From assembly GCF_000383975.1 (NCBI RefSeq), contig NZ_KB913017.1:2221527-2285526 (forward strand): a stretch of DNA of 64,000 bases, read 5' to 3'. Position numbers and translations under genes: made by a program. Positions 27,334-30,355 of the stretch are shown piece by piece (the stretch's first letter is position 1; the number at the start of each line of letters is the position of its first letter). The notes below the pieces were generated by a model. The model did not search any database and had not been told where the DNA came from. It saw only the letters and a list, made by a program, of their open reading frames with translations. The stretch is from Natronorubrum tibetense GA33 (lineage in GTDB: Archaea > Halobacteriota > Halobacteria > Halobacteriales > Natrialbaceae).

Positions 27334-29874
27334 ATGAGCCAACCGACCGACACGATACCCGACGTACACGACACTCGAATCGGACGCCAATCACGACGAA
27401 CGATCCTTCGCGCCCTCGCGGCGACGGGATCCGCAGCCGCACTCGGCGGCGTCACGAGCGCACAGGACGAGGAAGACGCCGGCGAGGAGGAGGTCGACGA
27501 GGCCGACTTCGACGACGTTCCCGTCGCCGGCGAGTTCCCGGAAGGGGAGACCGTCGGCCTCCAACTGGTCGCGGAGAATTTGCCGGCCCCGACCGACCTC
27601 GATTACGTCGAGGTAGACGGCGAGATCCACCACTTCATTATCACGCAGACGGGACAGGTGTTCGCCACCAACTTTGACGACGTGCCGGACGACATCGACG
27701 ACGAAGACGAACTCACGGAAGAAGAGGAGATCGAGGACGACGAGGATGTCGTCGAGCCCGAGGAGGGGAGCCTGATCCAGGAGGAAGACGAACCTGAGGA
27801 GCCGGTCGATGTCGACGACGATCCGGACGATCCGGAACCTGACGAGGAGATAGCGGAAGACGCAGACGAGGAGGTCGAACCGGAGCCGGACGAGGAGGTC
27901 GAGGACGACGTCGACCCGGCCGAGCCACAGGAGTTCGTCTTCAACGGCGTCGTGCCGGCCTGGTTCGGCATGGAACCGGAGGAAATCGACGGCGAGGAGA
28001 ACCCGACGCTCGAGTTGACCGCTGGCGAGACCTACCAGTTCACCTGGGAGAACGGCGACGGCGATCCCCACAACGTCGTCATTCTCGACGCCAACGACGA
28101 CATCCTCGAGCGAACGGAGATCATGCAGGAGGCAGGCGAGAGCCAGACGCTCGAGTTCGAGGCGACCGAAGAGATGGATCGGTACCTCTGTGAGGTCCAT
28201 CCCGGGACGATGGTGGGCAGCATTCAGGTTGAACCGCCGGAAGAAGAGGAAGAGGAGGTCGAGGACGCGGACTCGCTGACGCCCGCAGACATGGACCTGT
28301 TCCTCGACATCGAAGACCAGCTGGTCAGCCTCGGCATCGGGGAACTCGGCGGCTACGACGAGCGCGGCCTGCTGGGGCTCGCGTTCCACCCCGAGTTCGA
28401 AGAGAATCAGCTGTTCTACGTCCACTACAGCGCGCCGGAGCGCCACGGACTCGGCTACAACCACACCGCCGTCGTCGCGGAGTTCCAGGCTGAAGAGGAC
28501 CTGACGGGCGTCGATCCGGACTCCGAACGGACCGTCATGGAGATTCCGCAGCCACAGGACAACCACAACGGCGGGCGCCTCGCCTTCGGTCCCGAGGGCT
28601 ATCTTCACGTCTCGCTCGGGGACGGCGGGAACGTCCACGACATCGGCGTCGGTCACGTCGAGGACTGGTACGACGAGAACGAGGGCGGTAACGGCCAGGA
28701 CACGGAGGAGAACCTGCACGGCGGGATCCACCGCATCGACGTCGACGCGGAGGACGACCAGGAGTACGGCGAGTACGGCATTCCCGAGGACAACCCGCTC
28801 GTCGACTCGGATGAAGACATCGACTCCTACTGGGCCTGGGGCTTCCGGAACCCCTGGGGGATGTCGATCGACGACGACGGTCAGGTGTTCGTCTCCGACG
28901 CCGGCCAGCACGCCATCGAATCGGTCTACGCCGTCGAAGAGGGCGGCAACTACAGCTGGAACGTCAAGGAGGGCTCGTTCTGCTTCAGCCCGGATTCCCC
29001 GCTCGAGGCGCCCGCGGAGTGCCCCGACGAGGTCGAAGGCGACGTCAGCGAGGCTCGAGACGGCGAGCCGCTCCTCGACCCGATCGCGGAGTACCAGCAC
29101 ACGCGGATCTCGGAGGCGTTCATCGACAGCTCGGTCGTCGTCGGCGGCCACCGCTACGCCGGCGAGGCGATCCCCGAACTCGAGGATAACTTCGTCTTCG
29201 GCAACTGGAGCAGTCAGGGCGTCGCCGACGCCGACGGCGAGGTGTTAGTGGCGGTCGATCCGAACGGAGATGACGAGATGGACGACGAAGACGACGAGGA
29301 AGAACTCGAGGACGACGCCGACCTCGACGAGGAAGACGAAGAGACGGAAGAGGCCGAGGAAGACAGCTGGATTCAGGACGACGATGAAGAGGAGGTGGAC
29401 GAAGACGACGATGAAGAGGAGGAGGAGGAAGAAGAAGAGCTAGACGATGAAGACGAGGACGACCTCGTCGAGGTCGACGACCGCTGGGAGCTCGAGGAGC
29501 TACAGTTCGAAGGCGCCGAGGGCGAGTCGCTCAACCGGTACGTCTACGGCGTCGAACGCGACGAGAACGGTGAGCTGTACGTCCTCGCGAACACCGACTT
29601 CCGTCCCGATCCCGAGACTGGCGAGATCTACCGAATCGTTCCGGCGGAGGAGGGCGAGGAGATCCCCGAGCCGGAGGATCCGTTCGTCGTCGACGAAGAG
29701 ATGGAAGACGAGGACCCCGAAGCGGAAGCGCCGGACGATGTTGCGGAAGAGGACGAGGAGTTCCCCGAAGGCGAGGACGACGAGATGCCGGAGGAAGAAG
29801 CGGTGGACGAACCCGGAGCGGACGAAGCGCAACCCGACGACGGAGCGGAGCCGGAGCCACAGGAAGCCGACTGA
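27334..29874 (+). CDS. Tat-exported PQQ/sugar-dehydrogenase-type beta-propeller with inserted cupredoxin domain
   Basis: An 846-residue, extremely acidic protein. A Tat signal is present (SRRTILRALAATGSAAALGG, residues 20-39). Residues 70-112 look like the first strands of a soluble glucose/sorbosone-type dehydrogenase propeller. An acidic linker and a plastocyanin-like domain (about 199-300; Cu ligands His246, Cys286, His289, Met293) follow, after which the propeller resumes at DERGLLGLAFHPEFEEN (342 on) with HNGGRLAFGPEGYLHVSLGDGG. A second acidic insertion (about 650-710) precedes the last blade, and there is an acidic tail. It probably works outside the cell, passing electrons from substrate oxidation to copper. 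The cofactor and substrate are not proven. Confidence 0.9.
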   Translation: MSQPTDTIPDVHDTRIGRQSRRTILRALAATGSAAALGGVTSAQDEEDAGEEEVDEADFDDVPVAGEFPEGETVGLQLVAENLPAPTDLDYVEVDGEIHHFIITQTGQVFATNFDDVPDDIDDEDELTEEEEIEDDEDVVEPEEGSLIQEEDEPEEPVDVDDDPDDPEPDEEIAEDADEEVEPEPDEEVEDDVDPAEPQEFVFNGVVPAWFGMEPEEIDGEENPTLELTAGETYQFTWENGDGDPHNVVILDANDDILERTEIMQEAGESQTLEFEATEEMDRYLCEVHPGTMVGSIQVEPPEEEEEEVEDADSLTPADMDLFLDIEDQLVSLGIGELGGYDERGLLGLAFHPEFEENQLFYVHYSAPERHGLGYNHTAVVAEFQAEEDLTGVDPDSERTVMEIPQPQDNHNGGRLAFGPEGYLHVSLGDGGNVHDIGVGHVEDWYDENEGGNGQDTEENLHGGIHRIDVDAEDDQEYGEYGIPEDNPLVDSDEDIDSYWAWGFRNPWGMSIDDDGQVFVSDAGQHAIESVYAVEEGGNYSWNVKEGSFCFSPDSPLEAPAECPDEVEGDVSEARDGEPLLDPIAEYQHTRISEAFIDSSVVVGGHRYAGEAIPELEDNFVFGNWSSQGVADADGEVLVAVDPNGDDEMDDEDDEEELEDDADLDEEDEETEEAEEDSWIQDDDEEEVDEDDDEEEEEEEEELDDEDEDDLVEVDDRWELEELQFEGAEGESLNRYVYGVERDENGELYVLANTDFRPDPETGEIYRIVPAEEGEEIPEPEDPFVVDEEMEDEDPEAEAPDDVAEEDEEFPEGEDDEMPEEEAVDEPGADEAQPDDGAEPEPQEAD

Positions 29875-30007: not shown

Positions 30008-30355
30008 ATGGCGCTCCAACAGATCGAGCACGCGGACGACCACATGCAGGAGTGTATTGACAACTGCCTCGAGGCTGCCCAAGTCTGTGAGTGGTGTGCT
30101 GACGCCTGCGCGGACGAGGGCGAAGGCATGGCCCGCTGCATCCGACTCTGCCGGGACGTGGCGGACATCGCCTCGCTGCACGCGCGATTTATGGCCCGCA
30201 ACTCGGGCTACCACGAGGAACTGGGTGAACTCTGTGCGGATCTCTGTGAGGAGTGCGCCGAGGAGTGTGAGGGGCACGATCACGATCACTGTCAGGCCTG
30301 CGCGGAGATCCTGCCGAAGTGCGCCGAGAGCTGTCGGGAGATGGCGTCGGCCTGA
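30008..30355 (+). CDS. Cys-rich four-helix-bundle copper-binding protein (Csp-like)
   Basis: A 115-residue protein with 15 cysteines in CxxxC and CxxC spacings along predicted helices (QECIDNCLEA, CEWCADAC, CIRLC, ELCADLCEECAEEC, CQACAEI, KCAESC), matching the DUF326/copper-storage-protein family that lines a four-helix bundle with Cys to hold Cu(I). A His-rich turn GHDHDHC may add a metal site. No signal peptide is seen, so it is probably cytosolic. It starts 133 bp after the cupredoxin-containing dehydrogenase, which suggests a copper-related pair. The ATG at 30008 begins the conserved helix. Confidence 0.92.
   Translation: MALQQIEHADDHMQECIDNCLEAAQVCEWCADACADEGEGMARCIRLCRDVADIASLHARFMARNSGYHEELGELCADLCEECAEECEGHDHDHCQACAEILPKCAESCREMASA

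Follow-up and report, generated by a model that had tools for sequence, protein, structure and literature searches.

An open reading frame that joins a sugar dehydrogenase-type propeller to a blue copper domain raises two questions: whether the copper domain is fused to the N terminus of the propeller or lies inside it, and whether it could serve the propeller as a built-in electron acceptor. The frame lies within a 64,000-nucleotide stretch of the Natronorubrum tibetense GA33 genome (here, the window), and its listing and translation gave 846 amino acids from an ATG start (positions 27334 to 29874, plus strand). HMM searches and alignment gave the domain order P1-Cu-P2, with the copper domain (Cu) between two propeller segments (P1 and P2). 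Pfam GSDH (PF07995) matched residues 343 to 548 (E = 2 × 10−26; 93 bits against a cutoff of 25), and Copper-bind (PF00127) matched residues 225 to 300 above its cutoff (E = 5 × 10−6). In isolation, the copper domain scored 32.6 bits against PF00127 (cutoff 21.2), with the His-Cys-His-Met ligands present. The NCBIfam PQQ dehydrogenase subfamily TIGR03606 scored 61 bits, below its curated cutoff of 434.55. The features of the locus are as follows:

27334 to 29874, plus strand: complete coding sequence, 846 aa (open reading frame listing and translation; orthologues 63 to 87% identical over the P1-Cu-P2 region)
27379 to 27462, plus strand: Tat-type signal SRRTILRALAATGSAAALGGVTSAQ without a lipobox cysteine (Pfam TAT_signal match weak in the query and stronger in homologue L035; sequence inspection)
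27541 to 27672, plus strand: P1, residues 70 to 113, comprising strand D closing blade 6 and strands A to C of blade 1 (independent HMM, 29.4 bits; alignment A1; match of a profile to Hedgehog-interacting protein across the junction; AlphaFold pLDDT of ∼90)
27673 to 27933, plus strand: acidic linker 1, residues 114 to 200, ∼60% Asp/Glu and without Lys or Arg (composition; low pLDDT)
27934 to 28233, plus strand: inserted cupredoxin, residues 201 to 300, with ligands His246, Cys286, His289, and Met293 (Pfam Copper-bind; ligands identical in 11 of 11 insert-type proteins)
28234 to 28293, plus strand: acidic linker 2, residues 301 to 320 (composition)
28294 to 29262, plus strand: P2, residues 321 to 643, from blade 1 strand D to blade 5 strand C, including His411, Arg505, and Asn506 (Pfam GSDH; register to sGDH)
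29263 to 29460, plus strand: second acidic insertion, approximately residues 644 to 709, in the C-D loop of blade 5 (composition, alignment, and model strand count)
29461 to 29658, plus strand: end of the propeller, residues 710 to 775, comprising blade 5 strand D and blade 6 strands A to C (alignment; match to domain 3 of Hedgehog-interacting protein)
29659 to 29871, plus strand: acidic C-terminal tail, residues 776 to 846, with no anchor seen (composition; sequence inspection)
30008 to 30355, plus strand: downstream neighbor, a small, Cys/His-rich DUF326 protein (PF03860), four-helix and copper storage-like (Pfam PF03860; tblastn of loci)

The ligand numbers given in the sequence-only reading of this stretch proved exactly right when checked against the sequence. 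Its account of a propeller split by an acidic linker and a blue copper domain also stood, but the propeller picks up again near residue 321 (LFLDIED, blade 1 strand D) rather than at residue 342. The second acidic insertion that it saw dividing the last blades was assigned by the model strand count to the C-D loop of blade 5.

To avoid circularity, the HMM used for the N-terminal segment was built from eight relatives with uninterrupted propellers only. It matched query residues 70 to 111 at 29.4 bits, compared to a maximum of 6.0 bits over 200 shuffles, and found no second copy of the P1 strands after the copper domain. In alignment A1, the segment 'ETVGLQLVAENLPAPTDLDY...TQTGQVFATN' paired almost gap-free with the first strands of the uninterrupted relatives; insert types then carried ∼200 extra residues, after which both types continued with FLDIED or FLDVSD. 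The A1 profile matched Hedgehog-interacting protein (HHIP) contiguously across the junction (7pgm, 9 to 224; E = 3 × 10−39), which places the insertion, in HHIP terms, after the strand that ends in KILTPEGE and before PYLDIH. Another alignment, A2, in which each copper domain had a row of its own, put part of P1 in the wrong place and was left out of the structural reading.

Two AlphaFold models gave P1 a pLDDT of ∼90 and folded it as strand D of blade 6 plus strands A, B, and C of blade 1 (blade lettering is our own count from DSSP strands). After the first linker, the cupredoxin, and the second linker, the chain returned to complete blade 1 with its strand D and went on to form the other blades, of which blade 3 lacked a resolved strand D. 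Because overall confidence was modest (mean pLDDT of 56 for the query model and 64 for an orthologue with shorter linkers), the models support this blade geometry without proving it. Fold searches matched HHIP, sGDH, and aldose dehydrogenases (1cq1, 3a9g, and 3das; TM scores of 0.44 to 0.64 on the target). The strand order and the matches to HHIP, sGDH, and 3a9g point, with modest confidence, to a six-bladed propeller.

A simple N-terminal fusion, with residues 70 to 113 lying outside the propeller, would fit the behavior of the Pfam GSDH model, which stops short of this segment both in the intact protein and after removal of the insert. We therefore turned to profiles built from the family, and the evidence for P1 as propeller is accordingly evidence at the level of the family. 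Nevertheless, the independent HMM, the alignment to uninterrupted relatives, the HHIP alignment, and both AlphaFold models all place residues 70 to 113 in the propeller, and no second copy of these strands lies behind the copper domain. Simple fusion is thus extremely improbable and was rejected on alignment A1 and the independent HMM. These data confirmed that the copper domain is a true insertion in propeller blade 1, between strands C and D, and the predicted structures supported the earlier proposal of insertion rather than fusion.

His411, Arg505, and Asn506 are in register with His144, Arg228, and Asn229 of sGDH, whose roles we took from published work (PMC6881810). The register came from an equal-length match of 4 to 94 with 76 to 166 and from a match of 3 to 64 with 207 to 266 that has two net gaps. 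For sGDH Lys377, a PQQ ligand, no evident counterpart was found in the 846-aa protein. The catalytic His, Arg, and Asn were kept in 52 of 52 propellers. The copper ligands were kept in all 47 fused domains and lost in some stand-alone ones; conservation in relatives had been named beforehand as a test of copper binding, and the 11 insert types all retained the full set.

The presence of a Tat-type signal, together with the absence of a lipobox or C-terminal membrane helix on inspection of the sequence, makes secretion more likely than surface anchoring. The earlier placement of the protein at the cell surface is accordingly unsupported, and export would follow the Tat route.

Taking these features together, we favor, at a probability of roughly 55%, a secreted, six-bladed, quinoprotein-type (sGDH/aldose dehydrogenase-like) sugar or polyol dehydrogenase of Natrialbaceae that carries, as a tethered acceptor, a type 1 copper domain held by long and flexible acidic linkers in the hairpin joining strands C and D of blade 1. 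A sugar would be oxidized at a putative Ca/PQQ-like cofactor bound near His411, Arg505, and Asn506; the cupredoxin would swing to the cofactor face, accept electrons one at a time, and hand them to an external acceptor such as halocyanin or the respiratory chain. By analogy with known systems, the cupredoxin would be the most likely built-in acceptor: a tethered cytochrome domain acts as built-in mediator in the AA12 pyranose dehydrogenase CcPDH (PMC6881789), and an engineered aldose dehydrogenase-cytochrome fusion transfers electrons internally (PMC12011955). For the PQQ dehydrogenases of Thaumarchaea, earlier proposals name cupredoxins or blue copper proteins as acceptors that are separate from the enzyme (PMC6657660, PMC7300363).

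The linkers flanking the copper domain are ∼87 and 20 residues long. In four-stranded propeller blades, one face carries the D-A and B-C loops, and the A-B and C-D loops belong to the opposite one. Catalytic residues precede the A strands, and the catalytic calcium lies in a B-C loop in TrAA12 and sGDH (PMC6881810). Given these positions, an insertion in a C-D loop lies across the propeller from the expected active site, and the fold therefore does not set the copper domain beside the cofactor; the domain would have to swing round. By a rough estimate, contact with the cofactor would stretch the shorter linker almost to its full reach. The N-terminal tether, at the start of blade 6 strand D, should share its face with the blade 1 C-D loop, on a neighboring blade. 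Since both tether points would be so placed, the inserted position probably keeps the old function, with the domain now held at both ends.

Cofactor supply also bears on this reading. pqqC was not found in the N. tibetense genome or in any of 125 Natrialbaceae genomes, while the same model matched in Pseudomonas as a positive control; PqqE had no match above cutoff in the N. tibetense genome. An own supply of PQQ, not strictly required of a PQQ-dependent sugar dehydrogenase, was thus not detected, and PQQ would need to be scavenged or the cofactor would be a different one. Many GSDH-type "PQQ-dependent" dehydrogenases are nonetheless encoded across these 125 genomes.

The lack of pqqC, and the fact that HHIP is the best match of the propeller by both sequence and fold, would suit a propeller that is an HHIP-like binding module rather than an enzyme, in a protein that uses it to attach to a ligand and acts as a copper electron carrier outside the cell. 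This is improbable: HHIP lacks the Arg-Asn pair at that position (GLHDPG), whereas His, Arg, and Asn are invariant in the 52 haloarchaeal propellers, and PQQ enzymes are known from organisms unable to make PQQ (PMC6881810). A better, though still unlikely, alternative is an active PQQ-type dehydrogenase whose copper domain is not its acceptor, having been relocated to a permissive surface loop and tolerated there, with a separate role for the cupredoxin in, for example, copper handling or docking. The insertion site opposite the expected active site is consistent with such an arrangement, as are unrelated acidic insertions tolerated at the same blade 1 C-D site (L073 and L024), the retention of every catalytic residue in relatives without copper domains, and the copper storage-like DUF326 gene just downstream. 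Against it stands the invariance of the copper ligands in fused domains compared to their partial loss in stand-alone ones, as does the presence of a copper domain with 47 of 52 analyzed propellers, although that sampling was partly chosen for the copper domain. As for the downstream gene, the DUF326 and BFN neighbors were common only to the same-genus locus (L004/L068) among the loci checked by tblastn, and a conserved neighborhood was rejected.

A search for this domain order across haloarchaea, of the kind proposed in the sequence-only reading, found P1-Cu-P2 in 11 sampled species genomes: 10 of 125 Natrialbaceae genomes and one partial genome from another family of the same taxonomic order. 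A class-wide draw of 391 genomes yielded no further full-length P1-Cu-P2 match among the best six candidates per genome. We dissected 52 distinct propellers, fetched by similarity and partly chosen for the copper domain, and hence not a census; the copper domain was N-terminal in 36, inserted in 11, and absent from 5. As judged from these sequences, the P1-Cu-P2 order appears to be a rare, conserved rearrangement of a widespread putative fusion enzyme. The insert-type protein from the other family (L025, G016) has other propeller loops enlarged by acidic insertions as well. Two genomes keep both copper positions side by side, with an N-terminal-fusion paralogue on the opposite strand ∼1 to 2 kb from the insert-type gene (L008 in G200 and L066 in G345). 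In the N. tibetense genome itself, a protein of 428 aa carries a tandem pair of cupredoxins of this kind and adjoins a single-domain one (G000:C1:1564105-1564809; L052, L053), and several more cupredoxins of this type lie elsewhere.

In a propeller tree built with the insert left out, the 11 insert types formed one clade (96/87), whose sister was the N-terminal-fusion protein L073 (100/100); on this sequence comparison, the insert order has a single origin. L073 carries a 107-aa acidic loop at the P1/P2 junction, where insert types carry the copper domain, and an insert of 81 aa occupies that junction in L024, which lacks a copper domain; other proteins have ∼5 to 16 residues between P1 and P2. 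Given these two loops, the junction was probably already permissive before the insertion. In the copper domain tree (99 columns), the inserted domains fell outside the group of N-terminal copper domains (99/98); an alternative tree grouping the inserted domain with that of L073 was not rejected (p-AU = 0.097). One protein considered as an intermediate (L069, G300) proved on dissection to be an ordinary N-terminal fusion and was set aside. We suggest only tentatively, and regard as somewhat doubtful, that an electron transfer domain moved or was re-acquired from the N terminus into the blade of a quinoprotein-type propeller via a preexisting acidic loop. The result would be an intramolecular copper relay, tethered at both ends, in a class of enzymes working on scavenged PQQ or another cofactor.

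Among known systems, the haloarchaeal N-terminal cupredoxin-GSDH fusions share the propeller family, cupredoxin type, ligands, and catalytic residues; however, they carry the copper domain before an uninterrupted propeller and not within blade 1, between its C and D strands. Public plasmid records label relatives "PQQ-dependent sugar dehydrogenase" or "plastocyanin." The sGDH and aldose sugar dehydrogenases of Acinetobacter (1cq1), Pyrobaculum (3a9g), and Streptomyces (3das) are six-bladed, with equivalents of His144, Arg228, and Asn229 here, but they lack a copper domain and are only 13 to 19% identical to the 846-aa protein in the fold search. In CcPDH (PMC6881789), a redox domain covalently attached to a six-bladed PQQ propeller acts as built-in mediator, the arrangement proposed here; in that fungal enzyme, however, PQQ binding is proven, and the role of mediator falls to a heme b cytochrome at the N terminus rather than to an inserted copper domain. 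HHIP (7pgm, 2wfx), the closest solved fold, is a ligand-binding protein of animal signaling and not an enzyme, and it lacks the insert. A 2016 study described COG2133 enzymes as uncharacterized in Halobacteria (PMC4766312). Neither a cupredoxin-GSDH fusion nor the insertion was found described in the open-access papers searched, within which the earlier remark that no described example with this order was known is upheld.

A natural copper-tethered sugar dehydrogenase would serve for electrodes. Among the haloarchaea, a widespread set of "PQQ-dependent" proteins is encoded by genomes that yielded no match for the PqqC step. Housing a redox domain within a blade of the propeller would be an unusual way to build a self-contained electron transfer enzyme, and because the N-terminal form, the form with an empty acidic loop, and the inserted form occur side by side in one family, domain repositioning is directly testable.
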